Part shown: in pieces, positions 17,901-57,800 of the stretch
Layout: every line of letters begins with the position of its first letter
Position numbering within the stretch: position 1 is the first letter of the stretch
Assembly (NCBI RefSeq): GCF_965363235.1
Contig: NC_134842.1
Location: forward strand, 2,321,112-2,385,111
From: Mytilus galloprovincialis
Lineage: Eukaryota; Mollusca; Bivalvia; Mytilida; Mytilidae
Length of the DNA: 64,000 nucleotides
Reading direction: 5' to 3'
Position numbers and translations under genes: made by a program
Notes under the pieces: generated by a model
What the model was told of the DNA's origin: nothing
Databases searched by the model: none
What the model saw: the letters and a program-made list of their open reading frames with translations, nothing else

Positions 17901-20900
17901 TATAAATATAATATTGAGGTTATCAAAAGGGACATTTTAGACAAAGAAGTAAAGAAAGGAAAGAGAAAATTTGTAATTCAGAACAATGTATTAAAAAGGA
18001 GGGTGTTAGAATACTATTTTGCTCTCTAAATTCTGTCCTATTTCATTGTATTTAATTTAGATGTGTGGATAGGTAACTCTCAACACTAAATCCTAGAGAA
18101 TATTTTTAATGCATAAGAATAACAAAATTTGGTTAACTTTTATCATCAGTAGCACATTGTGTGGCGACATCCTTCTAGAATCAGATCTACCCATAATTAA
18201 CAAGTTCCTGAAGTTATATCTCACATTGGCTTACATACTATTATATATAGAAATTAAAAGCATGGTATACATGCCAATGAAAGAACTCGCCATCCAAAAC
18301 ACAAGGTGTAAAAAGTAAACAGTCATTTTTGAGGTCCTTTGTAGCTTGCTGTTCAGTGCAAGCCAAGGCTCTGTATTGAATACCATACTTTGATCTAGGC
18401 CTTTAATGGTTTACTTTTACAAATTGTGACTTAGATGTAGAGTTGTCTCATTGGCCCTCGTACCATGTATAGGTCAATATCTCACATTAGTCTTACCTAG
18501 TTTTTTCTCTGACCTCTCTGATTGCCTCTCGTCTGACGATATTCTACTGGACGACTCCCAATCAACAGGTGTTGAAGTTCCAGACAAATCAGATCTAATA
18601 CTTCTATCTCTCGTACTTTCAGAATCTAAAATCAGAAAAATAAATGTATGCTTCATTTAAGCAACTATTTTTTTAAGATTAAGTGTTATAATAGCAGGTT
18701 ATAGAAAGCAGGTTTAAACAAGAGTTCTATACAAAATAATAACCCATCTTATGCTAGCTAGTAAAGTTCTCTTCCATCATTTATACTAAAGATGAATGAA
18801 GTCTTCTGTCACATTATATCCTTAATATTGAAATGGACAGATGGATGGATGGATGGAGTAGAGGGTTACTAGACCTGCTTTCATCTTTGGAAACACAGGT
18901 AATAACAAAATGAATAGAAACCATGGTGAATATGCAAAACTTTAATTTTTTCTAACAAAGAAAATAAACTGAGAAAATAAAGTGCTCAAAAGTGAGCCAA
19001 AAAGGGGTTTAACACGTAAAAAAAAGTAGTTTTTATCACAACCACAAGAAAACTTCAACAAAATATAGAATCCAAAAAGACAACTTGTTTGGTCTCATAC
19101 CTTCATCTCCACTACTGTCATGGTCAAACACTTTCTTCTCTGATGAGACAACACCGTCCTGATCTTTGGTTTTATTCTTTATAGAGAAACTAAGTTTGGC
19201 TGGTTTGTCTTTCTCAAGTTTTTCTCGTTCTTTCAATACTTCCTGGAAATATACGAAAAACAAAATTACAAAACAATTTCCCACAATTCCATATCCTTAA
19301 AGTGTGGTTAAATTCAAAACTTTAACATCAAGGTCAAAGCTTTTGTAAACTAGCCTGTTAACTATATAGCTAAGTCTTGTATTTCTTAGCTAAGCCTAGT
19401 AAAATATTGTTTTAAGAACAAGATTGAAACCCTAAGCTTGTAACGATTGAATTCTGTTTATTTCATATAAGGATTTAAATTTCTACAAGTAGAATCAGTT
19501 TTGATAAAACTAGATTACTGTAGATCTTTCATTTCATATATACCAGTTTTCATGGATTGAGGAACAATTGTTTTATTGGCAGATAATTGTTTTATTGGCA
19601 GATAATTGTTTTATTGGCTTTGCCAGGCCTGCATGGAAGGCTACAACAAATGTTTACTTTGTTGAACATTAAAATTCTGGGTTCACAATAAATAAAAATT
19701 CCACAGTAGTTACATGAGATTTTTCATTTCCTTTTAATTTCTGATAATTAAATCAGTGATCTTGTGGTTGTATGCTCACCTCCAGTGCTAAAGGTTTTTG
19801 TGTGTTTCGACTCCTTGGATCAATACATTAAAATATGTTTTATTAAATTTTATCCTCATTTAAATACAAATGTTCAGGTGGGTATATTCATGTGCCCAAC
19901 AATGGTTTCATTACTTACCTCAATAAATATTTTCTTTTTCGAGTTGTAATATCTGAAGTATGAATGCCATGGTTGTAGAAATTCAAAGCGTGGATCATTT
20001 TTACTTCTGACTACAATCTCAAATTCTACCCCATTCTTGGCGACATACATGGCCATCCTATCAATGATTGGTTGGATGTCAGGCGGAGGTGGTATAACTT
20101 TAGGCTCTAACGATGGACCCATCATCACAGGGGCATGCTGAACACTAGAAAAAAACATTCAAAAATACTTTCATACAGATACTATTATGTAAATAAACTC
20201 ATAGATACCAGGATTAAATTATTGTTTGCCAGACAGTTATTTCGTCTACAAGAGACATCAGTGACATTCACAATTTTTTTTTATTTCTAAAGGCCAAAAA
20301 ATGTATGAAGTTGGAAACACTGAGGAAGGAAAATGATTTATTGATCCTAAAATTAGCATTTTTTTAACATGACAAATTAATACACCAATAGAATACACGA
20401 AATACAGTTGGATTTCAATTATCTTTTTCTATGTACCAACTTTTAATTTGTCAGTTTACCTATTCTTGTAAAATCCAACGAAAAGATGAACCTATAAACT
20501 GAATCTACAGCAACTAAGTAACAACATTTACAATATGTTTTAAAATACAGCTTTTAAAGGTAGACTATGTCTTTATGCCATAACAGATCAGCTTTTAAAG
20601 GTAGACTATGTCTTTATGCCATAACAGATCAGCTTTTAAAGGTACACTATGTCTTTATGCCATAACAGATCAGCTTTTAAAGGTACACTTTGTCTTTATG
20701 CCATAACAGATCAGCTTTTAAAGGTAGACTATGTCTTTATGCCATAACAGATCAGCATTTAAAGGTAGACTATGTCTTTATGCCAGTAGACTATGTCTTT
20801 ATGCCATAACAGATCAGCTTTTAAAGGTAGACTTTGTCTTTATGCCATAACAGATCAGCCTTTAAAGGTACACTATGCCTTTATGCCATAACAGATCAGC

Positions 20901-23900
20901 CTTTAAAGGTACACTATGTCTTTATGCCATAACAGATCAGCCTTTAAAGGTACACTATGTCTTTATGCCATAACAGATCAGCCTTTAAAGGTACACTATG
21001 TCTTTATGCCATAACAGATCAGCTTTTAAAGGTAGACTATGTCTTTATGCCATAACAGATCAGCTTTTAAAGGTAGACCATGTCTTTATGCCATAACAGA
21101 TCAGCCTTTAAAGGTACACTATGTCTTTATGCCATAACAGATCAGCCTTTAATGGTACACTATGTCTTTATGCCATAACAGATCAGCTTTTAAAGGTAGA
21201 CTATGTCTTTATGCCATAACAGATCAGCCTTTAAAGGTACACTATGTCTTTATGCCATAACAGATCAGCCTTTAAAGGTACACTATGTCTTTATGCCATA
21301 ACAGATCAGCCTTTAAAGGTACACTATGTTTTTATGCCATAACAGATCAGCTTTTAAAGGTACACTATGTTATATGCCATAACAGATCAGCTTTTAAAGG
21401 TACACTATGTCTTTATGACAGAACAGATCAGCTTTTAAAGGTACACTATGTCTTTATGACAGAACAGATCAGCTTTTAAAGGTACACTATGTCTTTATGC
21501 TATAACAGATCAGCTTTTAATGTAGACTATGTCTTTATGCCATAACAGATCAGCTTTTAAAGGTAGACTATGTCTTTATGCCATAAGAGATCAGCTTTTA
21601 TAGGTAGACCATGTCTTTATGCCATAACAGATCAGCTTTTAAAGGTAGACTATGTCTTTATGACAGAACAGATCAGCTTTTAAAGGTACACTATGTCTTT
21701 ATGACAGAACAGATCAGCTTTTAAAGGTACACTACGTCTTTATGCCATAACAGATCAGCTTTTAAAGGTACACTATGTCTTTATGCCATAACAGATCAGC
21801 TTTTAAAGGTAGACTATGTCTTTATGCCATAATAGATCAGCTTTTAAAGGTAGACTATGTCTTTATGCCATAACAGATCAGCTTTTAAAGGTAGACTATG
21901 TCTTTATGCCATAACAGATCAGCTTTTAAAGGTAGACTATGTTTTTATGCCATAACAGATCAGCTTTTAAAGGTAGACTATGTCTTTATGCCATAACAGA
22001 TCAGCCTTTAAAGGTAGACTAGGTACACTATGTCTTTATGCCATAACAGATCAGCCTTTAAAGGTAGACTAGGTACACTATGTCTTTATGCCATAACAGA
22101 TCAGCTTTTAAAGGTAGACTATGTCTTTATTCCATAACAGATCAGCCTTTAAAGGTACACTATGTCTTTATGCCATAACAGATCAGCTTTTAAAGGTAGA
22201 CTATGTCTTTATGCCATAACAGATCAGCTTTTAAAGGTTCACTATGTCTTTATGACATAACAGATCAGCTTTTAAAGGTAGACTATGTAGATCAGCCTTT
22301 AAAGGTACACTATGTCTTTATGCCATAACAGATCAGCTTTTAAAGGTACACTATGTCTTTATGACATAACAGATCAGCTTTTAAAGGTACACTTTGTCTT
22401 TATGCCATAACAGATCAGCTTTTAAAGGTAGACTATGTCTTTATGACATAACAGATCAGCCTTTAAAGGTACACTATGTCTTTATGCCATAACAGATCAG
22501 CTTTTAAAGGTACACTATGTCTTTATGCCATAACAGATCAGCATTTAAAGGTACACTATGTATTTATGCCATAACAGATCAGCTTTTAAAGGTAGACTAT
22601 GTCTTTATGACAGAACAGATCAGCTTTTAAAGGTACACTATGTCTTTATGACAGAACAGATCAGCTTTTAAAGGTACACTATGTCTTTATGCCATAACAG
22701 ATCAGCTTTTAAAGGTACACTATGTCTTTATGCCATAACAAATCAGCTTTTAAGGTAGACTATTTATGCCATAACAGATCAGCTTTTAAAGGTAGACTAT
22801 GTCTTTATGCCATAACAGATCAGCTTTTAAAGGTAGACTATGTCTTTATGCCATAACAGATCAGCCTTTAAAGGTACACTATGTCTGTATGCCATAACAG
22901 ATCAGCTTTTAAAGGTAGACTATGTCTTTATGCCATAACAGATCAGCTTTTAAAGGTAGACCATGTCTTTATGCCATAACAGATCAGCCTTTAAAGGTAC
23001 ACTAGGTCTTTATGCCATAACAGATCAGCTTTTAAAGGTAGACTATGTCTTTATGCCATAACAGATCAGCTTTTAAAGGTACACTATGTCTTTATGCCAT
23101 AACAGATCAGCTTTTAAAGGTTGACTATGTCTTTATGACATAACAGATCAGCTTTTAAAGGTACACTATGTCTTTATGCCATAACAGATCAGCTTTTAAA
23201 GGTAGACTATGTCTTTATGCCATAACAGATCAGCTTTTAAAGGTAGACTATGTTTTTATGCCATAACAGATCAGCTTTTAAAGGTAGACTATGTCTTTAT
23301 GCCATAACAGATCAGCCTTTAAAGGTAGACTAGGTACACTATGTCTTTATGCCATAACAGATCAGCCTTTAAAGGTAGACTAGGTACACTATGTCTTTAT
23401 GCCATAACAGATCAGCTTTTAAAGGTAGACTATGTCTTTATTCCATAACAGATCAGCCTTTAAAGGTACACTATGTCTTTATGCCATAACAGATCAGCTT
23501 TTAAAGGTAGACTATGTCTTTATGCCATAACAGATCAGCTTTTAAAGGTTCACTATGTCTTTATGACATAACAGATCAGCTTTTAAAGGTAGACTATGTA
23601 GATCAGCCTTTAAAGGTACACTATGTCTTTATGCCATAACAGATCAGCTTTTAAAGGTACACTATGTCTTTATGACATAACAGATCAGCTTTTAAAGGTA
23701 CACTTTGTCTTTATGCCATAACAGATCAGCTTTTAAAGGTAGACTATGTCTTTATGACATAACAGATCAGCCTTTAAAGGTACACTATGTCTTTATGCCA
23801 TAACAGATCAGCTTTTAAAGGTACACTATGTCTTTATGCCATAACAGATCAGCATTTAAAGGTACACTATGTATTTATGCCATAACAGATCAGCTTTTAA

Positions 23901-26900
23901 AGGTAGACTATGTCTTTATGACAGAACAGATCAGCTTTTAAAGGTACACTATGTCTTTATGACAGAACAGATCAGCTTTTAAAGGTACACTATGTCTTTA
24001 TGCCATAACAGATCAGCTTTTAAAGGTACACTATGTCTTTATGCCATAACAAATCAGCTTTTAAGGTAGACTATTTATGCCATAACAGATCAGCTTTTAA
24101 AGGTAGACTATGTCTTTATGCCATAACAGATCAGCTTTTAAAGGTAGACTATGTCTTTATGCCATAACAGATCAGCCTTTAAAGGTACACTATGTCTGTA
24201 TGCCATAACAGATCAGCTTTTAAAGGTAGACTATGTCTTTATGCCATAACAGATCAGCTTTTAAAGGTAGACCATGTCTTTATGCCATAACAGATCAGCC
24301 TTTAAAGGTACACTAGGTCTTTATGCCATAACAGATCAGCTTTTAAAGGTAGACTATGTCTTTATGCCATAACAGATCAGCTTTTAAAGGTACACTATGT
24401 CTTTATGCCATAACAGATCAGCTTTTAAAGGTTGACTATGTCTTTATGACATAACAGATCAGCTTTTAAAGGTACACTATGTCTTTATGCCATAACAGAT
24501 CAGCTTTTAAAGGTACACTATGTCTTTATGCCATAACAGATCAGCTTTTAAAGGTTGACTATGTCTTTATGACATAACAGATCAGCTTTTAAAGGTACAC
24601 TATGTCTTTATGCCATAACAGATCAGCTTTTAAAGGTACACTATGTCTTTATGTCATAACAGATCAGCCTTCATGGTAGTACTAATACTTTGTACAAGTT
24701 TAGTCTGCAATTAATTTCATATATGTTGTGTTGTTTGGTTATTGTCTCCATTAAGTGAAAAAATATATATAATAACCAGCAACTCAGATCTTAAAACAAC
24801 TAATGACCAGTAACTCAGATCTTAAAACAACTAATGACCAGAACTTTTTTTTCTTCAAATAATGTTGTTTATTGGTTGTTTATAAAAACTTGTTCATTAG
24901 ACAAACCTTGGTGGCTTTTCCTCTTCTTGTTCCTCGTCCATGACTTGTTGTTGTAGATGTGGTGGTATCAATGGTCCCTCTAACTCTGTACCTGGGGGTG
25001 GAGGCTGGTTAGATGATGGTAAGGTGACAGGCTCCAGTCCCGGGGGTGGGGGTACACCAGGGTGCATGTGATGGTAGTCTGTGGTCTGATGTATGAACGT
25101 GTTACCTGACTCCGGGGGAGGAGTGTTGCTCGTAGGCTGTGGAGAGTAACTTCTTCCTGAGTATTGGTCCTGATTAGGTGTTGGTGAACTACTGAAATGA
25201 AAATACAAATCAATTAATTCTAATTAATCTAAACATATTTTGTTCAATAACTTGATGCATCAAAATATTTTAAGTACATATCTTAAGATATATTATTATA
25301 CATGTTATACAGTAGCAGAACTGATAGACTTTGTGCTTCATCACCATGAACAAACAGGTAAGTTTCAATAATATTAATACATTATTATTAATAAATTTGG
25401 TATGATTGAAACAGGAAAACAGTTTTTAACTACAAGATAGATTAAACTACTGTAGAGCCTATCACAAAAGATTTACAACACAAGTAATGGTTTACCATAC
25501 GGTGTATCATGTATAGATACAGCTGACTCAGTACTAACCTGTTTCTTTCTGAGTCAGGAGTAGATTTTTTCAGATGTTTGAGCAGTTTACCATACGGTGT
25601 ATCATGTATGGATACAGCAGGCATCTTGACAGCAGGTGCTAAGTTAGGCTTGGCTGTGTGTGTCTGCACTAAACTGGGATGTAAATATCCATGCTGACTA
25701 TGTGGAGCATCATCATCTGAAATAAAAAGTTTATCATGTAACATTTATAATCAATACAGTTCAAAGTCAATTAAAAATAACTCAATTATTCACACTGAAT
25801 GCTGTTTTTAGTGGATAATTCATGCAGTTATTTATCTCTGTTTATTTAAAAAAAAACACATGGCAAGGTCACAAAGTTAAGTAATCGCCCCTCATATTTA
25901 TGATTTCATTTCACATGTTTATGAAAATATCTAATAATAATTTAGTACCAACTTTCTGATGTAAAAACATATTAATATCATTCCTAACGTAAAAAGCAGT
26001 GTAACATTCAGTGACACTGGCAAATTAAACATGTAAAATGCATATTCAGGAAATGAACACAATAATTGTGTCAGATATGACTATAAACCCTGATTTGTAC
26101 TAGACCGATACGCTTAACTGTATTTTCAACATGCTACCTCACAAGGTAACAGACTGCAGGACGACATGTTACCATATTCAGATACATTATACTGACTCCA
26201 AACAAACCAGTCTTCTTTGTTCTTTTACAGAAGAAGAAAATACAAATCTGTCCTGGATTTTTATCAGAATATGAAAAAATACATAGAATTGGTGAATGGT
26301 TTTTTATTCTATTGGGGTATTTTGGCCCAATAGAATAAACATTTGGCATTGCTGTAACAGACCATACTAACCTCTGTTATCATCATCATCCTCTTTAATC
26401 TCTTTAGGTTTATATTTCCCAGATTTAATCATGTTGACCATATGTTTATAATACTGATTTAACATTGTTATAACTGACCCTACTAACCTCTGTTATCATC
26501 ATCATCCTCTTTAATCTCTTTAGGTTTATATTTCCCAGATTTAATCATGTTGACCATATGTTTATAATACTGATTTAACATTGTTATAACAGACCCTACT
26601 AACCTCTGTTATCATCATCATCCTCTTTAATCTCTTTAGGTTTATATTTCCCAGATTTAATCATGTTGACCATATGTTTATAATACTGATTTAACATTGT
26701 TATAACTGACCCTACTAACCTCTGTTATCATCATCATCCTCTTTAATCTCTTTAGGTTTATATTTCCCAGATTTAATCATGTTGACCATATGTTTATAAT
26801 ACTGATTTAACATTGTTATAACAGACCCTACTAACCTCTGTTATCATCATCATCCTCTTTAATCTCTTTAGGTTTATATTTCCCAGATTTAATCATGTTG

Positions 26901-29900
26901 ACCATATGTTTATAATACTGATTTAACATTGTTATAACAGACCATACTAACCTCTGTTATCATCATCATCCTCTTTAATCTCTTTAGGTTTATATTTCCC
27001 AGATTTAATCATGTTGACCATATGTTTATAATACTGATTTAACATTGTTATAACAGACCCTACTAACCTCTGTTATCATCATCATCCTCTTTAATCTCTT
27101 TAGGTTTATATTTCCCAGATTTAATCATGTTGACCATATGTTTATAATACTGATTTAACATTGTTATAACTGACCCTACTAACCTCTGTTATCATCATCA
27201 TCCTCTTTAATCTCTTTAGGTTTATATTTCCCAGATTTAATCATGTTGACCATATGTTTATAATACTGATTTAACATTGTTATAACAGACCCTACTAACC
27301 TCTGTTATCATCATCATCCTCTTTAATCTCTTTAGGTTTATATTTCCCAGATTTAATCATGTTGACCATATGTTTATAATACTGATTTAACATTGTTATA
27401 ACAGACCCTACTAACCTCTGTTATCATCATCATCCTCTTTAATCTCTTTAGGTTTATATTTCCCAGATTTAATCATGTTGACCATATGTTTATAATACTG
27501 ATTTAACATTGTTATAACAGACCCTACTAACCTCTGTTATCATCATCCTCCTCTTTAATCTCTTTAGGTTTATATTTCCCAGATTTAATCATGTTGACCA
27601 TATGTTTATAATACTGATTTAACATTGTTATAACAGACCATACTAACCTCTGTTATCATCATCATCCTCTTTAATCTCTTTAGGTTTATATTTCCCAGAT
27701 TTAATCATGTTGACCATATGTTTATAATACTGATTTAACATTGTTATAACAGACCATACTAACCTCTGTTATCATCATCATCCTCTTTAATCTCTTTAGG
27801 TTTATATTTCCCAGATTTAATCATGTTGACCATATGTTTATAATACTGATTTAACGGATCCTCAAAATGAAGAAAATCAAACTGTGAATTCTTGGCTTGT
27901 TTGGTCTTTATTATAATCTCCATTTGCATGCCATGACCAGCAATAAACTTGGCCGTCTTTTCTATAAACGCATGTTGTTTTTCTGATTCAGGCTAAAATT
28001 AGAAGTTATATTTAATCATGAAGGCATTATACAAGATATTGTTTTATTACATTGTTAACCTTACTGCAATTTATGTTATTTCTTTGGTGTCATGACCATT
28101 TATTGATCTTTAGTTTTGATTTAACATAAAAGGAGATGTGATTTATGTGTAAATGAGAATTATTCAGCCCTTAAATGAAATGAAGCTGAGAAACATAAAA
28201 GTGTGAAAAATATTTGATATTCTGTTGATCACTGTGTTTATAGGCAATGTTAATGACATAAGCTTATGACATCATCATTTTTATCTACTCGACTGAGACA
28301 ACCATACTCAGTTGAGAAACATGATATGAAAATTATCACCAAAAAAATTCAAAGCAACATTTAAGAAAATGGTGATAAAAATAAGTTTGATGTTTGATTT
28401 CAAATAAAAACACTTGAATAAGTTTCATATTCAGTAAGGGCTGTTCCATTGAGTGAATGTTTGAGGGTAGGCACAGGAATGTCATTTTTGCACATGCAGT
28501 GTGGGTTATTAATTGTGGATTTATGTCACAAATATATTATAAGAATAACGCTAAGAAATATGGGAATTTTCAATGTCCTATGATATTTTCTGGCGTCCAT
28601 TTAAAAGAAATAACCCTAGATGTAACTTACGACTTCCATTTCTGAAGGAACTTGTAAATCTTCTGGTACTATAAAAATAGGCTCTGGTTCTATTGATAAA
28701 AAATAACAATAAATTACATTTATATACAATGATATAATTAAAGAAGTTCTAAGTTTTGAAACAATCTTTTCTCTTAATTTCGATAGTTTTGGCACATTGT
28801 TTGTACACACTGTGACTCACTTGACCAGAAGTTTTACCATCTGTCATGTCTGTGGTAAAAGTGAACATTGTGTTTGTGATCATTTTTGTCAGAAAGTTTT
28901 ACGAAGTCACATGTAGTTATAAGTTAGTGAAAACTAATTGTAGAAATCCTCGTTTAAGGAGGCTCGAGGGTACAAAAATTTCAGAAAAAAATCAAACATT
29001 TGTTTTTCATTACAAATTTTATATATTTCCTTTTGTAGTTGTTACTTTATCATATGGTACAAAAATCATTCAAAACAATCAATTTGTGTTGGCCCCAAAT
29101 GACTTTCAAAATGTATACATCATTGAAAAAGTTCCAAATTATCTCCCTTTGGTGGAAAAATGCCATTTTTTGGCTCTAAAATTGAAATATCTTTTTCAAC
29201 TCATCGGTGACCTATCTTTTTTAATGTAATTTCCATATAAGCTGTACTTAAACTAAATTATTGTAAAATTTTAGCGATTTCTGTAATAAATTTCTTTTTT
29301 TTATTTCGATATTACCTTTATTTCTCCTATTACTTCAACAGAAAAAAACCACCTTTACAAAAATGTATGCTTCTTTCGAAGGCAGATTGTGAGCGCAAAT
29401 GAACGGTGACCCCACTTTTTTATTTTATTTTTCTATTAACTATAAGATAAAGTTCATTTATAGAAAAATATAGAGAAATCCTATATAAATGATTTAGACC
29501 CGCGAACCCCCTTAATTGTTATGGTCAGCTTTTAAAATTAGAGATTTGTTTAATCGGCAGAGAGAGTTGATGTTTGAGCAATAGACAACTTTCGAGTTCA
29601 TCCGTCACTGGAAATGCATCGAACTAAAAAGTTGTCTATTGTTTTCTTGTGCAGACTGCCATTGACATCTATCTGTGTTGGAAAGGACAAAAATTTCCAC
29701 AAAATAACAGAGATATTAAAAAGGCCTATAGCTAGAACATGAGGTCAGATTGGACACAGTATCATCTGATTATTAAATTTTCCACATCGTGTTTTAATCA
29801 AAGTCTCACTGTCATGTGAAGGAAGATCGATTGATTGGTTGATGTTTAAAGCCACTTTCAGCACTATTGTACTATTTTGTGACAGTCAATTCTTGTTTTT

Positions 29901-32900
29901 TTAAGGAAGCCGGAGTGCCTAATTCATGCAATTGGAAGAAGACTGTATGAGATATTGTACTCACAAAAAATTATCTAACCTACCTTGTACTTGTGTTTCC
30001 ATGAAGTCTTGGTGATGTTGGTGATCGTAGCTAAATCCCACCGCATTGAAACCCTCTGATAGAGACTGATAATATCTCTTCCATTCTTCCTCTACAGACA
30101 CAAAAATATATGCATGACACAGTATATACACACATATATATTAAGAACATTTTACAAAATATTATTTTAATTTTTTAGTGATTGAGCACTATGCATATTT
30201 TGAAATAAAAATGTAATATGTAGTTTTTAACTTGCCCTGTGGATTACTTCATTTTTCATGACCTGAGGAAACTTACATTTACATAGATATTTGATTTTCT
30301 GATTTTGTCATCTGCAGTTCAGCTTAACGAAAATTTATGATTCAAAATTCCATGTCATGTTTCACTTGAACCTAGATAATCCACATAAAATAAAATATGA
30401 ATATAATTGACGCCTGATCCTAACTTTTTCAAGTTTTTGGTTGTGAAAAAGGACATTTGATTGATTTTTTTTGGGTCATTTTCCTAGAGATGCAACATTT
30501 TTGTATGCACAAACATTTTTAAGTTTTTCAAGCAGCATGTTGACTGATCAGGATGTTTTCATGTGGAGTAAAATTGACAAGATAAGTGTTTCCAATCATT
30601 TTTTAATATTTCTGTCGAGGAATTAAAAGACCAGAAAGAACATAGATCATTGACGTCATACAAGAGAAATATATATATTTTACCTATACAAATATTTAAC
30701 AGAATTCCTACCTTCGTACATCTTTTTACCTATACAAATATTAAACAGAATTCCTACCTTCGTACATCTTTTTACCTATACAAATATTAAACAGAATTCC
30801 TACCTTCGTACATCTTTTTACCTGTACAAATATTTAACAGAATTCCTACCTTCGTACATCTTTTTACCCATACAAATAATAAACAGAATTCCTACCTTCG
30901 TACATCTTTTTACCTGTACAAATATTAAACAGAATTCCTATTTCCGTACATCTTTTTACCTATACAAATATTAAACAGAATTCCTACCTTCGTACATCTT
31001 TTTACCTGTACAAATATTAAACAGAATTCCTACCTTCGTACATCTTTTTACCTATACAAATATTAAACAGAATTCCTACCTTCGTACATCTTTTTACCTA
31101 TACAAATATTAAACAGAATTCCTACCTTCGTACATCTTTTTACCTATACAAATATTAAACAGAATTCCTACCTTCATACATCTTTTTACCTATACAAATA
31201 TTAAACAGAATTCCTACCTTCGTACATCTTTTTTTCTGCCAGATCATTTTTGAGTTCCAGGTATCTTTCCTCGTCACACCAAGCTTCCATCTGTTTATCT
31301 TCCTCGGATAGCTCTGCCCTCTTAACATGACTGGCATCGTATTTTGAAAGGTCAAACAGATGACCTCGTCCATCATATCTGAAGGTACAGAATAAATACA
31401 TACATTTATAATGCGATCATAAAATGATAACCAGTAAAATTTAAGAATACTATTCTCTTCAATATGACCACCAACATACATATATACATCATAGCATAGC
31501 AAAAATATGCAAAAACCAAACACATGTTCATGCTTTCAAAGAACTGAGGTCAGCTAAAGGTATGCTTAAGAAGTTTTTCAGAGGAAGGTTACACATATGC
31601 AAAAATGATATGTGTACATAATTTGTACAAAATATGGCTAAAATATGCAGATTTTCATTCCTTTCATTATTTTTGTACAAATTAGGAAAGTAACTGTTTT
31701 CTCAAGTTACAAAGCAGTAGATATAATATCAGTTATCATGATTTACCACATGACTTACACAGTAAAAAAAAATCTGAAAAGAGGCCTCACAAGCTTATTT
31801 TTTTGGTTAAATAGCTTCTCACTATTTTGGTTCTTGTCCATCCTTGACTTTCAAATATTCTGCTACAAGTCATGCAAGTGTTCCTAATGAAGGTAAATTC
31901 AGAAAAGTGTTGGAGACTCATGAAACATATAAGGTGTTGTTTTCGTTTGTCATAAATTGTTCCTATATTTTTATATCTATATGTACACATGTATATGGTA
32001 TAGTGTGTGGTCATACTGAAGATAATTTTAATCTACTTTCAAGGTGATTTGAGTTGCATATAGTTTTAAATTAAAACTAATTGCATTTAAAACAAATTTA
32101 TCTGAATTCTAAACATATGTACGGTCACATCATGTAGTGTTCTCCAAAAGGTTATTTATCACATGGACTCATGGTAATCAGTAATATGATTTTAATTTTC
32201 TTGAGTGTGTATTACTATCTTAAGGATGTGATACAGTGTACTTTAACTTTTAGAAACAAGATGCAGTCATGGTATCTTAAATTTATTTGTACAACAGGAT
32301 GATTTATCAAATTTGATGGGAGAACACTAACATGATACAACACAACATGTTTCCTATTGAAAACTATGGTGACCTACATGTATCACTTTATAGTTTTTAT
32401 AGTCATTCTAAGTTGAACGAATTGTTTACAAATAGTAATTAGATTGTAATACAAATACATCAGCAAACAACAAAATGCACCCAAGGGTCATGACCTTGAA
32501 CACTGGACAATTGAATAAATTCAACAGACACTACCAGTTAGATCAAAAACATTTTTCAATAATTTAAAAAATTCTAAAATCATTCACATTTATTTTAACC
32601 AAAATGACTTTGATTTCAGCAAATTTATGCACATTTGGGAAAACTTCTAAATATATTTATATACACATTCTCTAATAAACAAATTTTTCAAATCACCTTA
32701 AATTAGATTAAAATTTTTCACTATGCTAAACATGAAGATCAGTTAATGATATTTTAAATTATTATAAAAATATGTTTGTTTCTATGTAACCATTGAGTTA
32801 TGATACATTATACAATCTTTTTTAGTAGGTCCTGATTATTACATTATTTATAAACAGTAGGTTTAGGAAACAAACATATCCTTATTTTACAACTTCAATA

Positions 32901-41400: not shown

Positions 41401-43745
41401 GGTTCTAGAGTCAGTAGATAGATATAGGAAGATGTGCTGTGAGTGCCAATGAGACAACCCTCCATCCAAATAACAATTTTAAAAAAAGTAAACCATTATA
41501 GGTCAATGTACGGCCTTCAACACAGAGCCTTGGCTCACACTGAACAACAAGCTATAAAGGGCCCCAAAATTACTAGTTTAAAACCGTTCAAACGGGAAAA
41601 CCAACGGTCTAATCTATATAAAAAAACGAGAAACGAGAAACATGTATAAATTACTTAAACAAACGACAACTACTGTACATCAGATTCCTGACTTAGGACA
41701 GGTGCAAACATTTGCAGCGGGATTAAACGTTTTAATGGTACCAAACCTTCTCCCTTTTTCCTGAAACAATAGCATAACATCACAACATAGAAAAACATAC
41801 GATAAAATATCAATTGGCAGGCTTAACTCAATCAAAAAAGGTAAATTAATACACTGAAGGAATAAATTTGATCTGCGATATCTGAATGATAATTAATAAA
41901 ATATCAGGGATAAACATTCAAGGCCAAAAAGCAAACAAATAAGTCCAAACAAAGCAATGGCAAGACACCACTGCGAAATATTTAACCCTACGAAAATTAT
42001 CACATTTGAAAAAAAAACGGTTTTAATAATACAGGTAAATCTTGAAGTTTATACAAATGTAGTGAAAATTAGAAGATATTCCAAATAATCAAAGCTGGTA
42101 TATATAATATTCCATATTAATATAAAATAACAAAAAGGTATTATAAACAGTTTCAACAGGTCGAATTAACAAGAAAATACGATTAGAGAGTACTCGCAGT
42201 TACTGACAGCTAGTTAAAAGCCAAAAACAATAATAAAAAAAAAAAAAAAAAAAAACTTGGAAAATTGCTATTTTTTTTTTTAGATTCCTCATCCAAACTT
42301 ACATAACTTACATTTGTTACATCCAAATTTTATGAAACTCATACACAATTCTTTCATTTATATGAAATATGACTTTTGTCTGACATATTTTAAATCTTTC
42401 AAATTCATCTATTTATAGGGTTATTCGTACAAAAATTAAAACACCATTAATTCTGCATTATGTTTATTTTTTAGTGAAAACACTGAACAATCAGATGATA
42501 GGAGTGTTTAACTTTGTGTTGACAGTGGGCGGGGCTTTTGTCTTTGGATACATGGCTACAAAGTATGCATTTGCTGATTCTGGACAAGATTCTTTCCCTT
42601 TGGTAAGTTAACCAGAATGTTACAGACATTTTGATAAGAGGAAAGTTTTTCTCAGTCTAATTATATCTTTTGGAATACAGTACCTGAAGTCATCTGTTAT
42701 ACAAACAGACATATTTTGAAAGGTAGTTTTTCTCAGTCTAATTATATCTTTTGGAATACAGTACCTGAAGTCATCTGTTATACAAACAGACATATTTTGA
42801 AAGGTAGTTTTTCTCAGTCTAATTATATCTGTTGGAATACAGTACCTGAAGTCATCTGTTATACAAACAGACATATTTTGAAAGGTAGTTTTTCTCAGTC
42901 TAATTATATCTGTTGGAATACAGTACCTGAAGTCATCTGTTATACAAACAGACATATTTTGAAAGGTAGTTTTTCTCAGTCTAATTATATCTGTTGGAAT
43001 ACAGTACCTGAAGTCATCTGTTATACAAACAGACATATTTTGAAAGGTAGTTTTTCTCAGTCTAATTATATCTGTTGGAATACAGTACCTTAAGTCATCT
43101 GTTATACAAACAGACATATTTTGAATAGTAGTTTTTCTCAGTCTAATTATATCTGTTGGAATACAGTACCTGAAGTCATCTGTTATACAAACAGACATAT
43201 TTTGAAAGGTAGTTTTTCTCAGTCTAATTATATCTGTTGAAATGCAGTACGTGAAGTCATCTTTTAAACAGCTAAGAATGCAAACAAAACATTTTAAGCA
43301 CTTGATTTAGTTTTAAATAATTTTAAACATAAGCTTTAGATAAAATAATATTTAGTGTATTCATCAATTAGATAGCAATAAACGTATTTACACTTTTGGT
43401 ATTTAGCTGTATTTTGCCTCTGAATGACCTTTGATCTACTCTGAATAACCTTCTGACGTCGAGCAACAATCACTTTCTAATTTTAACGTCAAATGTTATA
43501 AATTGTGATGTCAAAGTTTATTGAAACCTGTGTGATTTTATGTAATGGCAAACAAATTTGCTTTCAAGTGTAAATAGTCTTTTAACAAACAAAAAATGTG
43601 TTGAGGTCTAGGTAGGTTCTTGAATTCCTACACCAGTACGTCCATTATCTGTTTTGTATTTCAGCAATTGATGTCTGGATTAGTACTTGGTACCATCGTG
43701 TTCTTTGCTGACCTTTATTTCTTAGTGAAAGAGGACATGAGGTGA
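35448..43745 (+). CDS. TMEM199: TMEM199/Vma12-like V-ATPase assembly factor, 6 exons
   Basis: Exons are 35448-35628, 37782-37858, 39789-39881, 40989-41019, 42475-42602 and 43665-43745. They sum to 591 nt, giving 196 aa and TGA, and all introns are GT-AG with matching phases. The start MEPKVKVTE has A at -3 and G at +4. An in-frame ATG at 35379 would add 23 residues with no family resemblance. Family signatures are SLYLNELLEDS in exon 2 and NPELEARIKKLK with KMTKNV in exon 3. Two membrane segments lie near the C-terminus, at residues about 133-158 (IGVFNFVLTVGGAFVFGY) and 171-191 (LMSGLVLGTIVFFADLYFLV). Human TMEM199 is 208 aa. The product should sit in the ER/ERGIC membrane and help assemble the V-ATPase Vo sector. 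Confidence 0.93.
35961..36157. mobile_element. Hairpin element in TMEM199 intron 1
   Basis: Two arms of about 45 bp (GACCTAGTCCAAAAAATTAT with ATGTCTTAAAAGGCT, and the inverted form with TTTTTTGGACAAGGTC) enclose about 90 bp. The similarity begins at GCTTTAAC and its inverted match GTCAAAGC. It is probably a fold-back MITE. Confidence 0.7.
38607..39742. mobile_element. Non-autonomous DNA transposon in TMEM199 intron 2
   Basis: The left terminus is CAGGCCTCGACAATAAC and the inverted right terminus is CAGGCCTCTACAATAAC. TTTAT flanks both sides (38602-38606 and 39743-39747), a probable 5-bp target duplication. The motif CTTGTCC/GGACAAG recurs just inside both ends. A fragment of the GAGACAAC interspersed repeat (39280-39345) is nested inside. 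There is no transposase frame. The element ends 46 bp before the exon 3 acceptor. The terminus resembles hAT-type CAG starts, but the short duplication does not fit well, so the superfamily is open. Confidence 0.75.
40645..40925 (-). repeat. Interspersed repeat, 'GGGACAACAACCCGACC' family
   Basis: Minus-strand copy in TMEM199 intron 3, ending about 60 bp before exon 4. Shared landmarks with 44805-45085 (plus) and 57875-58110 (minus) are GGGGAATGTG, GGTCACCAA, TTCAATGTAGCG, CAGCTGGCCC, ACTAACAAAGGCCAGAGG and TTGGGACAGG. A shorter minus copy lies at 47820-47945. Confidence 0.75.
41423..42260 (+). repeat. Interspersed repeat with A-rich tail, TMEM199 intron 4
   Basis: It begins with GATGTGCTGTGAGTGCCAAT and aligns with 58133-58330 through ACCATTATAGGTCAA, GGCCTTCAACAC and ACCAACGGTCTA. 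It continues to a run of A residues at about 42235-42256. The A-run may be the tail of a retroposed copy, though I cannot show that it belongs to the same element. Confidence 0.55.
42626..43262 (+). repeat. 81-bp tandem array, 8 units, in TMEM199 intron 5
   Basis: The landmark CTCAGTCTAATTATATC occurs at 42651 and then every 81 bp to 43218. The array starts about 25 bp past the exon 5 donor and does not include it. As 81 is a multiple of three, frames stay open on both strands, which makes the two long frames here artefacts. Each unit carries a donor-like AAAG|GTAG and an acceptor-like TTTCTCAG only 14 nt apart. Confidence 0.93.
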
Positions 43746-48882: not shown

Positions 48883-51800
48883 TTACAATTCTTCGTCCGT
48901 TGTTTCTGCTTCATTTATCGATCTATCGTCGTTTTCATCATCACCCTCATCTTCATACTCAGTAGACTCATCATCCTCGGATCTATCCTCCATTAAAACA
49001 ACATCGTAGTCTTCGTCTTCCTCTTCATCATCAGTTTCTGCCATTAATTGGGCAAAAATGTCATCGACTGAATCTTCATCTTCTTCATCGCCTTCATCGT
49101 CACCCTCATTCTCATCATCATTTTCATCTAAATGATCAGTTTCATCGGCTTCGTCGTCTTCAGGATCATCGTCATTGATATCGGAATCATCAATGCCATC
49201 ATGGATATCATCTTCATGATCAATGTTATCGTTTTCATGGTCGATGTTTTCATCATCATGGCCTATGTTTTCGACATTGATTTCGTTGTTTCCTTCATCA
49301 TCATTGTGACAAATTCCTTCGTCCACGCCTCTTTCATCGATATCATTGTCATCTGCGTTATTAAAACTCTCCGGTTCGACGTCGGAAGGGCCATGTTCAT
49401 CGTTTATTTCTACACTTTCTCTATTGATCTCTTCACTATTTTCATCGTTCCCTTCATTGTCGATATTATCTCCATTCTCATCATTGTTTTCTGCATTTAA
49501 GCCGCCCCTGTCCTGGACACCATCGGTTTCAATGTCCTCCCAGGGGAAGTATTGGCTGACCTCGTTATCGACACCATGGAAATCTTCTCTGGCACGGGTC
49601 CTACTATTCTCCCAGTAGAAAACTTCTACGTATCCAACGCAATGCCCAGTACTGCTGTCTCTGTCATTATTCCGACTGGTTTCTCCCGGATAACTATTGA
49701 TCTCTTGCATGTTGCTCTGTTCATCTATTCCAATATTTTCTGTATCATAATTAATGACGTCTTCAATGACAGATATATTTTCGTAATACTGATCAAAGCT
49801 CATTCCATAATTATGTTCAGTATTAGTCCTGTCGTCTTCGATGTGTTGAGGCTCACCATTTTCACCATTCAAAGAGTTGTGTCCAATAATTGTTCTGATT
49901 TCCTGTTGACCACTAGTCAGGTTTTCTTCTTCATTGTATTGTTCCACATTCTCCTCATCATCTACATTTCCGCCATCAATGTTTTCAGTATCAAGCATAG
50001 CGTTTCCTTCATTCAAATTGTTTTCATCTTGGTTCCCATTGTTAACTTCGCCATCATTTTCATTGTTAACCTCTACATCGTTTTGATTACCATCCTCGAC
50101 CTCATCATGTTGAACAAGTAAACCATTGCTTTCGTCTCCCTCTTCATTTTCAATAGCCTCTACAATTTCATTGTTTTCTTCGTTATTTTCATTTTCCTCC
50201 TCATCTTCGTTACCCTCATCCTCATTATTGACCACCTCACGAGGTTGTTCTGCATTAGACTGTCCATCAAGATTTCCAATTATGTGACCATTTTCATCTC
50301 CATCTTGGTTGCTCTCTTCATTATTTTCATTTCCCTCTTCGTTGCCATCATCTTCATTATTTACAACAGCCGCAAGAGGTTGTTCTTCATTTGCCTGTCC
50401 ATCGAGATTACCAAGTACGTGACCATTTTCCTCCTCAACACTTTCCTCCTCATCTTCATCTTCTAAAACATCTTCTTCGTTTTCCTCTTCCTCTTCCGAT
50501 TCCTCTTCCATGCTTTCCTCGTCATCGTCTGACTCGAGCTCCGATGTGATGACGACGTTATTATTGCTTTGGCTGATAGCTTGTGTAAGTTGTACTCGGA
50601 CGGTCATTAAATACTTCAATTCTGTTTCATCTAGACCCAATACTCCAAGATTCAGGGATCGCAGATCTGAATTTGACAAAAGTATTCTTATTGTAAAACT
50701 CATCTAAACATTTTTCAAACAGTAAAACTACATTTAATATACATTTCTGTTTGTTCTATTTTCACTGTAGTTTCAGTATAGACTTTTCTTTTTATTGATA
50801 CTACCCTGGGACTTCTACAACAGTCTCTATACTACCTACCTTAACAATCGCATATGCCTTACATCTTATTAGTCCCATTCACCAATGTCAAACTTTTTTT
50901 TTATGGACAAAACCTTATTATTTATTCTGTAATACTTCAGTCATTGATTTTGTTTCTATCGTATCATCAGGATGTAAGACTATTTTAACACATAGTCAAT
51001 GTTATAGTTATCTCATTTGATTCCAAAGACCCGATTCCAAACAATGTATAAAAGTCAAAACTTATAAATTCTTACTTAATTGTTTATCATACTGCATCTG
51101 GCAAATTTTCTCCACAGTGTTAACAGACATTTTGCAGAACAGACTTAAATGTTTGAGACGATAGCATCTCCCCAGAAAGTACAGGATCTCGTCGTCAACT
51201 GGCTGGTTCTTGTCAAGGTGAAGGCTGAAACTCTCTGAAAACAAATAACCTAAGTTAATAATTAATCTCAAGTAAAATAAGTGTTCGTATGCAGATTTAT
51301 GTTTAAAAACGGGAGATGTATATGTTTGGTTACCTTGACATACAATTAGTGGTAGGATCCATGTAGAAATTTCATAAGTGGGCTTCAGTGATTGCCTAAT
51401 TTATCAACAAACAATTTACCACAAAAGAAGGATCCGTGTCCCTCGAAAACCCTCCAAATCCGCCTCTAATTACATAATGGTGATATCGGATTATCCCGTT
51501 AGTTTTATCGTTTGAATCGTTTTACATTGCCATTTCGGGCTTTTATAGCTGCCTATGCGGTATGGAATTTTCTCATTGTTGAAGGCCGTACGATGACCTA
51601 TAGTTGTTAATTTCTGTGCCATTTTGGTCTCTTGTGGAGAGTTGTTATACAACTTAATGACACTTTCAAAATTATAAGGTTCCATTAGAAATTCGGTTGG
51701 ACTAAACCGCTGCGAATAATTGAATCAATGATTATTTCTTTTGTTAGAGTAAACAATGATTATTTCTTTTGTTAGAGTAAACAATGATTACCATACTTAT

Positions 51801-54446
51801 TGTAAAAACAGCTGATGTTATGAAGTAAATTTAAAAATCATCGGTTGTTGCTAGAGGAACATTGTTGTTGTGATGAATCATGTATTCATTATGTTATTAT
51901 ATCGGAGAAAACATTGCTGATGAGATTAATCAATGTTTCACTACCAAAATTGTCATAGTACACATTACTGGTGTGATAAATCAATGATTCGCGACACAAA
52001 TAGTTTAATTATGATTGCTGATATAAACCAACAATGATTCATTTATATAAAGTGTTAAATAGTTATTGCTGATCTGAGTTATCAGTGATTCACTTACCTA
52101 TAGTGTTTAGAGTAAATATTGCTGATGTGATTAATCAATGAATCACTTACCTAAGGTGTCAGAGTAAACATAACTGATGTGATTAATCAATGATTCACTT
52201 ACCTAAGGTGTCAGAGTAAACGTTACTGATGTGATTAATCAATGATTCACTTACCTAAAGTGTCAGAGTAGACATTACTTATGTGATTAATCAATGATTC
52301 ACTTATCTAAAGTGTCAGAGTAAACATTACTGATATGATTAATGAATGATTCACTTACCTAAAGTGTCAGAGTGAACATAACTGATGTGATTAATCAATG
52401 ATTCACTTACCTAAGGTGTCAGAGTAAACATTGCTGATATGATTAATGAATGATTCACTTACCTAAAGTGTCAGAGTGAACATAACTGATGTGATTAATC
52501 AATGATTCACTTACCTAAGGTGTCAGAGTAAACATTGCTGATATGATTAATGAATGATTCACTTACCTAAAGTGTCAGAGTGAACATAACTGATGTGATT
52601 AATCAATGATTCACTTACCTAAAGTGTCAGAGTAGACATTACTTATGTGATTAATCAATGATTCACTTACCTAAAGTGTCAGAGTAGACATTGCTGATAT
52701 GATTAATGAATGATTCACTTACCTAAAGTGTCAGAGTGAACATAACTGATGTGATTAATCAATGATTCACTTACCTAAAGTGTCAGAGTGAACATAACTG
52801 ATATGATTAATGAATGATTCACTTACCTAAAGTGTCAGAGTGAACATAACTGATGTGATTAATCAATGATTCACTTACCTAAGGTGTCAGAGTAAACATT
52901 AATGATGTGATTAATCAATGATAGACTTACCTAAAGTGTCAGAGTAAACATTGCTGATATGATTAATGAATGATTCACTTACCTAAAGTGTCAGAGTGAA
53001 CATAACTGATGTGATTAATCAATGATTCACTTACCTAAAGTGTCAGAGTAGACATTACTTATGTGATTAATCAATGATTCACTTATCTAAAGTGTCAGAG
53101 TAAACATTACTGATATGATTAATGAATGATTCACTTACCTAAAGTGTCAGAGTAGACATTGCTGATATGATTAATGAATGATTCACTTATCTAAAGTGTC
53201 AGAGTAGACATTACTGATATGATTAATGAATGATTCACTTACCTAAAGTGTCAGAGTGAACATAACTAATGTGATTAATCAATGATTCACTTACCTAAAA
53301 TATCAGAGTAAACATTAATGATGTGATTAATCAATGATAGACTTACCTAAGGTGTCAGAGTAAACATTGCTGATGTGATTAATCAATGATTCACTTAATC
53401 AATGATTCACTTAATCAATGATTCACTTAATCAATGATTCACTTACCTAAAGTATCAGAGTAAACATTACTGATGTGATGAATCAATCCACACAATCTAG
53501 TCTGTGCCTCTGCTCTCGACTCTACAATCGCTGGCCATGCAATAATGTCAATCTCTTTCATAGGAACAGTTTCTGGTAGTGCATGCTGTATACCATGACG
53601 GAATCCAGAAGCATAGATATAGAATATGACTTTGGTGTCAGGACATTGCCTTTTAAAGTAGGTCCACGTCTCTGGTTCTATTACCCAACTATTAATATCG
53701 CAATCAATAGTAAGAGTAAATGTTTTCATTTTCTGTTCCCTGGCGAAATGCCTTAGAATTTCTCCGTTTACCGTGTTGTAATTAGTATAGATATAAGTTA
53801 ATCCTTTCATCTTTGACATAGCATTTCTATAACGTGATATAGAGATGGGGATGACATTGGTTTGGAACATGTCTTCCATGTATAGAAATTTCAGAGTTTT
53901 TGATGCTGCTCCCCGTCCGAGGGACTCTAATATTCTACAACCATCTACAAGTGTTACACGTGCAGCGATTAAGTTTAGTACTTCAAGTTCCCGGCATCGT
54001 CTCAGAAAACGACAGAGCGAAGCAACGACACGATTTTTAGAGGCTACAAAATGCCAGTGATTTTCCATATTAGCATGGTAGAGTGTAAATTCTTTGAGTC
54101 GCATGTTTGCTATGACTGCTAACTTCTTCAGAAAGACTTCAGTCGCTTGAGAAATGACTTTCACCGTTCGATAGGTAGGTCCCTGGAATCTTATAGCTAA
54201 CGATCGCAAGTGTTTTCCAAACCTTTTAATATATCTACAAGCTCTTTCCGCCGTGCCCATAGCATCGAATCCACCAAAGCTAACACACCGGTACCGCCAT
54301 AGTAATGGCGTTTCAAAGAGCCGCAACCAGTTTTTACATACACGGGCTGCAGCCACTCGTTCACTGTCATCCAAGTATTTGTAAACCTCTATTAAGGCAA
54401 CATCTGGAAGATAACACCAGTCGCTACTTTGTCCTAAATCACACAT
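48883..54446 (-). CDS. FBXO39-like F-box protein A with a giant acidic tail, 3 exons
   Basis: Exons are 53447-54446, 51076-51234 and 48883-50666 (2943 nt, 980 aa, TAA). Both introns are GT-AG and in phase. Residues about 9-53 are an F-box (LPDVALIEVYKYL, ARVCKNWLRLF, LLWRYR). LRR-like leucine-rich segments follow to about residue 425, collinear with paralogue B and with human FBXO39 (442 aa). Exon 3 opens with LRSLNLGVLGLDETELKYLM, matching B's last exon, which validates the splice. It then continues for about 555 residues of Asp/Glu/Asn-rich sequence ending TTDEEL. The tail contains an internal duplication of about 45 residues (GNLDGQANEEQP and GNLDGQSNAEQP). F-box proteins usually recruit substrates to SCF ubiquitin ligases; this role is inferred. 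The tail has no counterpart that I know in the family. Confidence 0.88.
51720..53470 (-). repeat. Tandem array of F-box A exon 1 end plus its 5' splice site (52 bp, about 26 units)
   Basis: The unit is about 29 nt of the exon 1 end (CATCAGTAATGTTTACTCTG, then ATACTTTAG in the true exon), the donor GTAAGT and about 17 nt of intron (GAATCATTGATTAATCA). It repeats every 52 bp from about 52091 to the real donor at 53445-53446. Most copies keep TTTAG|GTAAGT or CTTAG|GTAAGT. A few read GATAAGT and are lost. Between 51720 and 52090 the copies become steadily more decayed. Next to the exon there is extra slippage of a 16-bp piece (AATCAATGATTCACTT). Reading past the real donor gives Gly-Lys-stop. Confidence 0.93.
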
Positions 54447-54870
54447 GTTTAGGAAAGTTTGTAGACACCAACGTTACCCATGCAAACACTTATCCTGAAG
54501 ATCCAAGCGTGCGCAGATTTACCACAGAAACGACAATGGGGAACGTCACAAAGATCATTACATTATAGTCGGTCCAATCAGAAATTTTAATAAAAAATAC
54601 CAAACATTAAAATGGCTTTAAATATCGTAAATCGCTTTTTTTCGTTGTCTAAATACTTCTAAAAAAAATTAAAACATGACGTCCAGTTGATTTTTCCCAA
54701 ACAAAAAATGCTTAAAAATTCGGACTACGGCGAGTCCAACGTCATAATGTCTCAATTTGACACTATGGAGAACGTCAAGCCTAGTAACGTCAAACTGAAT
54801 GGAAAGTAGTTGGGTTGTTGGAAAAGTTTGTGAGATATTCACGTCAGTGTCAAGAATATTTAACAGTAGT
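54447..54870. promoter_or_regulatory. Shared promoter region of the divergent F-box pair
   Basis: 424 bp lie between the two start codons, so both promoters must fit here or overlap the first exons. An upstream in-frame ATG for gene B lies at 54799. I favour 54871, whose start MEQSTW lines up with paralogue A. No TATA box is convincing. Confidence 0.55.
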
Positions 54871-57800
54871 ATGGAACAATCGACATGGGTTGATCTACCA
54901 GATGTCGTGGTTATAGAGTTATTTAGATTTTTAAAAGACAAAGATCGAGCGGCTGCCGCGCTAGCATGTAAAAACTGGGCAAGATTGTTTAAGACGCCAT
55001 GCCTATGGCGCTCTCGACACTTTGAGATGGGAGGTTATAGGGCGCACAATAATGGAAGCCGCGCTTGTGCGTTTTCAAGTTTATTCGGAAACTATGTTAG
55101 ATATTTATCGATTTCGTGTAGTCATCCTTCATATCACACAACAAAAATATTCCAGAGAGCTATCGAGGACGTCCTAGGAAAAATGCGCACGTCGAATTTA
55201 TTTGAGTTTGAGCTGGAAAGATTAGAACTTGAACGTTTTTGGAAGTACGAAACACCCCGTGATAAATTAATAGCATGTTTTGTTAGGTTTTTAAAAACAC
55301 AAAAATATTTGAAAATATTTGATATGACAGCTGCACAATGTAACTTAGATGGAGGTTGTCGAATTCTACAAGCAGTGGGCAATAATTCTGGTCACAAAGT
55401 ACAAGATGTTTTTATAGAAGACTTTTTTCATTCAAGGCTAGCAGTATTTCAAACTGATCATTATAAGTCTGCAATTTACAAATTTACAAACATAAACTAT
55501 TTAGGAATCAATTACAACTGCTTGTCCGATGAAATTATTGAAACTTTTTCCAAAACACTTGAAGGAAAATTGGAGTGTATGAACATCAAAGTTTACCGAA
55601 ACGATCCACATTTCCACACCATAAGTGGCAGCCAGTGGTCTATGTTACGACGGAAGTGTCCAAAGTTGAAGGTAACCATGTGGTTTGAAAGCATTGGACA
55701 TTCCACAGATATAATTCCGGTTCTTGTGAAGGAGATTCCATTAAAAGACTTACATATCTGGACAGGATATGATGATGATGTGGAATGGAGACTTGCAATA
55801 ACGATAGACCATATTGCAAATTCTTACGCCAATACTTTAAGTAAGTCAAATTGAATACTTGCAAGTCTTATCAATAGGATAATTGGTCAGCGGAAAACAT
55901 TAGAAAAGTAACCCTTCTTTTGATTAAGGTAAAGAAGACAAGAATGTGATTACCTCTACTAATATTCAATAATAGAAATTTTAAAACGAAATCGTTAATG
56001 TTTTGATTTTAGAAATATATATATACAAATTGTCTTTTGAACAGTTTTATTTAAAATACATGTATATACACACTCATTATTTATCGTATGTGTCTGTCGC
56101 ATATTGTTGGTTTTTTTTATTTAAGTCAGACCGATAGTTTCTCGTTTCTTGTTTTACATTTATTATTTCGGCGCAATTTAAAGCTATATAAGTGATATTG
56201 GTTTTGCTCATTGTCGAAGGTCTACAGCAGCGACCTACAGTTGTAAAAAAACATCATTAAAGTGCAAAAACTCCGATAAGGTGTCCTTATTATCTTATTT
56301 GTAGACCTTGTCTTACTGGTCATTTTGCTTATATTAGTTTCTTTCTATCTGTACTGTTTTCAAAATGACGAAGGAAAATTAAGATAAAATTTGTCAATTA
56401 AGGGCATTAATTCCTGCAACAAGGCATCTGACTGTCTTGATTTAAATTATAGCAGGTAGATCGCAACATTCTGGACATTTTAGATCCTAATATATTTTCT
56501 CTATTCATAGCAGTTTTTAGTATAATAGACAAAAACTTGCATTTTACCCCTTTGTTCCATTTTTAGGCCATGGCGGCTATATTGGTTGTCTGGCGGGGTT
56601 ATCGGACACATTCCTTAAACTACACACCCCTATTATAATTGTGGCCAACTTTGGTTGAATTTGGCCCAGTGAGATTAGTTTCAGAGGAGAATAATGTTTT
56701 AAAAGTTAATCGACGACAGATCGAGGCCAAGTGATGAGAAAAGCTCACTTGACGCATTGGTCCAAGGGGAGCCTCACATTTATCTGATTTTTTCCTGCAG
56801 TACCACATTATGATAAAATTTAAACTATGCTTTGAGACTTGGATTGAGGGTTGTCTCATTGACACTCATATCGCATCTTCTTATATTTATTAAACGGTAC
56901 GAATGCGAATTAAGGCGTAAAAAACAAAAGAGGAAACACAGAACTGCACTTATTATAATGACTTTACTAAAAGATTGATTGTTTTATTTTATTCCAGGCA
57001 TGCTCTCGCTAGAACTAGATAATAATCACGAATTTGTGGACGATAATGTACTGGCACTGTTACAAAAGTGTAAGAAACTAAACCAGCTTACTCTCAATGC
57101 CAATGTTGTGGTCAGCACGATCAGGGCTATCTGTCTCTTGCGGTCAGAAAAGAAAACCAGTAAGTAAAATTCAATAGTAAAAGTACCACAAACGATATGA
57201 CAGGTAAAATTGAATTTTAACAGTTTGTGTGAATTGATATTAAAACTAGAAAAAATATTTTTCTAACTATTTGGATAGTGTCGGTTTTAATTAACGCTCA
57301 GCAGAAAACAAAATGCATATCTAGGACGAGAATATGTTAATATTATATGAATCTTAACACTGCTCTGTACCAATTCCCTCAGACGGACTTTTTTCAGTGC
57401 TAGTTCACAAGGTAACAGCCCACAGGACGAAATGTAAGCCTAACTGGACACATTATTCTGACTCCGAGACGACTGCTTAACATTTGGTCATTGATGCAAC
57501 AAACCTTTTAAAGAAGAACATTTTTAATAGCACTATAATACAATTCTCAGGAATACAATTTAGATAACGATCACATTTTTACGTAGATCATAATACTAGT
57601 ACACAGTTTTGCTTAGTCACATTTTGGAGCAGGTATATACAGTTTTTCATAACTGACACGCTTAGAGTAGGTATATAATATAATTTAAATTTCTTAGGGT
57701 AAGAATTTAGGAATGTTTCTGTTACAACCTCGCATCTTAGAGAATATATTTGTCGTTAACCTCAAGATGTCCTTTTGTTTTTGTGCAATCCCCTTTTATT

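Follow-up and report, generated by a model that had tools for sequence, protein, structure and literature searches.

The minisatellite of the human gene IFI6 (G1P3, 6-16) is built of 12-bp units that are in frame. The title of Turri, Cuin and Porter (1995; cited in PMC4526556 and PMC2572611) names it as a minisatellite with multiple splice donors, and PMC4526556 describes two downstream repeat units that act as donors, as well as three mRNA species. Intron gain by tandem duplication across an intron-exon boundary is described in potato RNA-dependent RNA polymerase (RdRp; PMC4974935), and the passage on earthworm metallothionein in PMC12783039 places tandem repeats inside intron 1 and mentions no donor copies. 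Here we describe three tandem arrays of 5' splice sites (donors) in a stretch of 64,000 nucleotides from the mussel Mytilus galloprovincialis (assembly GCF_965363235.1, contig NC_134842.1, positions 2,321,112 to 2,385,111 of the forward strand), hereafter the window, whose own positions are used throughout. Two of the arrays lie in SFSWAP, a gene of the same family as Drosophila su(w-a), and the third lies in an unrelated F-box gene. This kind of element is known from human IFI6; we found no report of three such arrays in one 64-kb window, and among the matches listed, no title or abstract opening reports a donor array in SFSWAP or in molluscs.

SFSWAP (synonym SFRS8; PMC12017769) occupies the minus strand between ~35.2 kb and ~12.5 kb of the window and was identified by Pfam matches to DRY_EERY and to two Surp domains. 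All gene models were built from open reading frames, domains, the F-box paralogue described below and the splice consensus. Fourteen SFSWAP exons were placed; the set is incomplete, with the last exon and some others unplaced. The exons and arrays in question are as follows (a slash marks the exon-intron junction).

31218..31378, minus strand: SFSWAP exon 2 (DRY_EERY region), donor AAG/GTAGGA, first intron base 31217
30678..31233, minus strand: exon-2 array, 46-bp unit made of the last 16 nt of exon 2 plus the donor and 30 nt of intron
27764..27992, minus strand: SFSWAP exon 5 (carries the first Surp match), donor GAG/GTTAGT, first intron base 27763
26347..27855, minus strand: exon-5 array, 116-bp unit made of the last ~91 nt of exon 5 plus the donor and ~25 nt of intron

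An earlier note on this DNA, made from the sequence alone, had placed the two SFSWAP arrays here, with 11 further copies behind exon 2 and 12 behind exon 5, and both Tandem Repeats Finder (TRF) and donor counts agree with it. The exon-2 array (46 bp x 12.1, 95% matches) has 12 copies counting the exon's own, 11 of them extra, and the exon-5 array (116 bp x 13.0, 98% matches) has 13 copies, 12 of them extra. The note's further statements on the sequence are borne out as well. The two units are unrelated when compared by eye, and nearly all extra donors are intact: AAG/GTAGGA stands in 11/12 copies of the exon-2 array including the real donor (10/11 of the extras), the GT being gone in the copy at 30942, and GAG/GTTAGT stands in 13/13 copies of the exon-5 array (12/12 of the extras). 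Reading through the real donor leads to a stop after five codons in exon 2 (G-R-N-S-V-stop) and after one codon in exon 5 (G-stop). The exons measure 161 nt and 229 nt, respectively. Exon 2 is preceded by an intron of 3,655 nt and followed by one of 1,126 nt (intron 2, which holds its array); exon 5 is preceded by 638 nt and followed by 2,047 nt (intron 5, likewise with its array). The upstream lengths were taken from the exon coordinates.

In the F-box gene, likewise on the minus strand, the third array follows an exon; a neighboring paralogue serves as a natural control.

53447..54446, minus strand: F-box gene exon with the F-box, donor TAG/GTAAGT, first intron base 53446; the start is the first ATG of the frame and is provisional
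51905..53487, minus strand: third donor array, 52-bp unit comprising ~34 nt from the end of the F-box exon, the GTAAGT donor and ~18 nt of intron
51076..51234, minus strand: next F-box gene exon, located by its similarity to the paralogue; the 2,212-bp intron before it contains the array
54799..55840, plus strand: exon 1 of the paralogous F-box gene, homologous junction TTTAA/GTAAGTC

The gene has a Pfam F-box-like match (5.5e-9). TRF assigns 30.6 copies to its array, and sequence patterns caught 28, with further decayed units uncounted. Among these 28 copies, 23 carry TAG/GTAAGT (the real donor included), three have GT changed to AT and two have decayed donors at the far end. The units stem from the local exon. 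Within the window, TAGGTAAGT, counted to look for dispersed sites such as a Helitron-borne mobile satellite would have, occurs 23 times on the minus strand, matching the 23 in this array, and 0 times on the plus strand. Read-through past the real donor gives G-K-stop.

The paralogue begins ~0.35 kb away on the opposite strand, with the two junctions 2.4 kb apart. Its protein is 33% identical (126/387 aligned positions), and the alignment runs through the exon junction. In the 700 nt past the homologous donor, the paralogue has no array and no exon-derived copy. Because it shares the junction and lacks the array, the junction and exon end must be older than the F-box array, which was copied from the exon. 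The copied exon ends also lie in conserved protein regions in each case (Surp and DRY_EERY in SFSWAP, the paralogue alignment in the F-box gene); thus, the exon is the original, from which the array was copied.

The window arrays share with IFI6 a tandem unit that carries a predicted consensus 5' splice site, found here in 13/13 (exon 5), 11/12 (exon 2) and 23/28 (F-box) copies. As judged by sequence, the first copy is in each case the exon's own donor, which the paralogue alignment also indicates for the F-box junction. Unlike those of IFI6, the units are 46, 52 and 116 bp long, none a multiple of three; they hold between 16 and ~91 nt of exon and introduce a stop. With potato RdRp the arrays have in common a boundary-crossing tandem duplication absorbed by splicing. 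There, however, a new intron came from one duplication at the intron end, whereas here many copies lengthen an intron that already existed, behind a donor that did too. That the intron is not new was tested for the F-box gene, where the paralogue has the same junction without the array.

We read the arrays as donor-spanning minisatellites, that is, local duplications across the exon-intron junction that were expanded and are tolerated by splicing, and we give this reading a probability of roughly 0.6. The pattern resembles a recurring duplication accident, tolerated by splicing, more than a regulatory device confined to one gene. A back-jump or slippage across the junction would place a second exon end and donor inside the intron, and unequal exchange could then expand the pair into an array. 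A simple form of the first step may be preserved behind SFSWAP exon 6.

25539..25716, minus strand: SFSWAP exon 6, first intron base 25538
25490..25523, minus strand: partial copy of the exon 6 interior, 34 nt, source 25585-25618, 33/34 identical

The copy starts 15 nt beyond the exon 6 donor at a lag of 95 bp, and the donor is not in the copied piece. It resembles the product of a single backward template jump, an event of a type that would be able to seed an array.

How such arrays could be tolerated depends on which donor is chosen. The classical rule gives precedence to whichever competing donor lies nearer its 3' partner across the intron; on this rule, the last copy of an array would be used and the message lost. 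PMC9225289 reports that the rule applies to short introns. For an exon between long introns, the same work finds selection of the donor that is closest to the acceptor of that exon: the upstream one of two identical donors was preferred in minigenes whose flanking introns were 365 nt. By exon definition, then, the donor nearest the exon's own acceptor would be preferred and everything beyond it treated as intron. The first donor should be preferred because the SFSWAP exons are flanked by introns longer than about 250 nt, so that the exon is recognized first; for the mussel, first-donor dominance is an extrapolation from minigene data of another species. With each further 46 or 116 nt the exon would become longer, and later donors should be less likely to be chosen. 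When a later donor is used, the immediate stop would leave a message fit for nonsense-mediated decay, and the leak rate is expected to be low. Leakage into later units does happen in a known case, since downstream repeat donors are in use in IFI6.

Donors and acceptors were compared for copies of this sort. Exon edges were matched with 700 nt of adjoining intron at 19 donors (14 from SFSWAP, four from the two F-box genes and one from a Vma12-like gene) and 18 acceptors (13, 3 and 2, respectively), with a shuffled-intron null of six shuffles per site. Exon-derived copies appeared at 4/19 donors, namely those of SFSWAP exons 2, 5 and 6 and of the F-box exon (scores of 28-104); the remaining 15 donors scored 6-10, and the shuffled-intron maximum was 13. 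At acceptors, 0/18 had an exon-derived copy within the 700 nt (scores of 7-10). The difference gives a one-sided Fisher P of 0.059. From the other direction, 18 local duplications were found in the window (lag of 30-150 bp, ungapped score of at least 20), including satellite-type arrays and one duplication within an open frame; four of the 18 span a donor and none spans an acceptor.

Several observations weigh against donor-spanning minisatellites that are merely tolerated. At a chance of 2-3% per duplication, estimated from the 19 donors and the unit length, ~0.4-0.5 donor-spanning duplications would be expected and four were seen (P of about 4e-4 to 2e-3). Leaving out the two arrays that first singled out the window gives a P of 0.04-0.08 for at least two of 16. 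The excess is suggestive only, and to account for it tolerance may need a hot spot or selection in addition. In PMC9225289, exon skipping predominated in larger-exon minigenes with two weak donors, and the donor of exon 5 is not strong. Moreover, the F-box exon is ~1 kb long and may be the first of its gene, with no acceptor upstream; the cross-exon rule may then fail for it, and leakage may be larger there. The F-box donor 9-mer lies among the quieter stretches of its unit, with 4/52 circular windows as quiet or quieter, which hints at constraint. Finally, variable columns in the exon-5 array number 1/91 among exon-derived positions versus 4/25 among intron-derived ones (P = 0.0075, uncorrected), a difference that neutrality does not explain. 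Two of the four variable intron-derived columns differ in the last unit only, and the low variation of the exon-derived columns might reflect conversion from the coding copy, which is under constraint.

Constraint on the extra donors was assessed by counts of variable columns and by sliding 9-column windows. When the three arrays were pooled (13 copies of the exon-5 unit, 12 of the exon-2 unit and 25 of the F-box unit), 4/27 donor columns were variable versus 26/187 other columns (Fisher P = 1.0). The windows as quiet as the donor or quieter numbered 34/46 for exon 2 and 86/116 for exon 5. The GT is missing in 1/12 exon-2, 5/28 F-box and 0/13 exon-5 copies. Selection on the donors was tried as a candidate and set aside, the pooled result being null and the F-box array marginal. 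Mean pairwise unit identity is 0.989 in the exon-5 array (13 copies), 0.963 in the exon-2 array (12 copies) and 0.914 in the F-box array (25 copies, decayed ones excluded), as arrays of different age or different homogenization would give.

The earlier note had proposed that the arrays could serve SFSWAP autoregulation, with the extra donors acting as poison exon extensions or as decoys for U1. In an autoregulatory device of this kind, the use of the extra donors would increase with the level of SFSWAP protein. In Drosophila, unspliced su(w-a) forms carry stops, and early stops occur here as well, after five codons of read-through at exon 2 and one at exon 5. The regulatory background on which the proposal drew is supported by PMC12017769, where Zachar 1987 and 1994 are the sources given for regulation of the first two retained introns; its passages report that retained introns were excised more after SFSWAP knock-down and that the gene controls its own first two introns, and they mention no donor array. 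The sequence prerequisites of the proposal (intact donors, unrelated arrays and immediate stops) stand, and the exon-2 array does lie within the first two introns. The step from these to an autoregulatory function is not supported: the same design recurs in the F-box gene, which we see no reason to tie to splicing control, the exon-5 array lies in intron 5, outside the first two introns, and the exon 6 copy has no donor. Because donor columns are no more conserved than others when pooled, an SFSWAP-specific device is weakened further, and we consider it distinctly improbable, although SFSWAP does promote the retention of introns and the intron-2 array may have some role. The lack of donor-specific conservation also bears on the proposal that downstream U1 sites act as a landing strip, strengthening the real donor or shielding the intron from premature polyadenylation, which we hold to be very improbable. 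Modified U1 particles bound downstream of a donor can rescue exon inclusion, according to a passage in PMC4822034, and the exon 5 donor is indeed the weakest of the three (U1 pairing energy of -6.5 versus -9.2 and -10.2; these values and the donor scores are approximate, as are the 5' splice-site weights and the U1 5' end used for them). The array with the most copies, however, stands behind the strongest donor, TAG/GTAAGT of the F-box gene.

The four donor-spanning cases among 18 local duplications, with no acceptor-spanning ones, would also be explained if 5' splice sites were mutational hot spots, where donors promote backward template jumps and donor-spanning minisatellites form a genome-wide class. 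One conceivable cause is the condition of the template at the point where nascent RNA is bound by U1; another is the step in composition between exon and intron. The exon 6 copy would then be the simplest form of the event, a 95-bp jump back that copied 34 nt, and another array in the window also begins close to a donor.

42644..43270, plus strand: 81-bp array in an intron of the Vma12-like gene, beginning 41 nt downstream of the donor, whose first intron base is 42603; contrast case

The numbers are small, though, the window was picked for two of the four cases, and selection alone could purge acceptor-spanning duplications; we regard a hot spot as unlikely. Near-identical units are difficult to assemble, and copy number might have been inflated or collapsed by the assembler. 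Such an artifact is scarcely credible here, as all three arrays contain variant units in irregular order, the unit lengths differ and the F-box array has decayed copies at its far end. An exact-pattern search of viral contigs for an exon-5 array junction gave 0 matches, and a scan with the protein of SFSWAP exons 2-5 found no relative (eight stretches matched a pattern, none confirmed).

Some further features of the arrays and their surroundings were recorded. Each exon-2 unit has an 18-nt in-frame, stop-free stretch from TATAG to the donor, which as a spliced microexon would add six residues. Recursive splicing or in-frame microexons were provisionally set aside for this array, given the weak acceptor and an implied intron of 28 nt. 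Acceptors were scored with a position weight matrix from the window's 18 own acceptors, on a single unit sequence per array. The best AG per unit scored 7.2 (exon 2), 5.8 (F-box) and 5.2 (exon 5), compared with a 95th percentile of 7.6 for 1,213 background AGs; as 3, 1 and 1 of the 18 real acceptors, respectively, score below the best unit AG, a weak site is not necessarily a dead one. SFSWAP intron 7 holds a ~4.1-kb array of 41-bp units (20548-24668), not exon-derived as far as seen, with a larger repeat of ~1,311 bp; the 47-amino-acid frames at 22713 and 24024 are identical.

The 81-bp unit of the Vma12-like gene contains no exon sequence; on the plus strand, its array has six AAG/GTAGTT sites above the donor score cutoff. 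Satellite-like arrays of 147-bp units lie at 16605-17518 and 62336-62947, and a 161-bp array lies at 45618-46388; we take these to be of the dispersed kind carried by mobile elements in bivalves. A large open frame at 1-3186, cut by the window start, has a URGCP-like GTPase domain (Pfam, 5.5e-98). The minus strand at 48883-50703 has a single open frame of 606 amino acids that is very acidic and repetitive, the first 147 residues of which match no Pfam family at an E value of 0.001. Rfam families gave 0 matches at the gathering score within the window.

What makes the locus interesting is the recurrence, with three arrays spread over two genes of the window, and the natural experiment in donor competition that it provides. 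With 11, 13 and 23 identical donors behind three exons, the choice among equal sites can be examined in a natural test in which strength is not a confounder. The third array shifts the question from the autoregulation of one gene to a process that perhaps seeds arrays repeatedly at donors across the genome. We offer only tentatively, and with more doubt than belief, the wider possibility that this genome holds widespread donor-seeded minisatellites, produced by a duplication process that favors 5' splice sites, with long series of identical donors in many genes. If the class is common, it would be a steady source of intron growth, of unstable isoforms and of copy-number variation acting on splicing.

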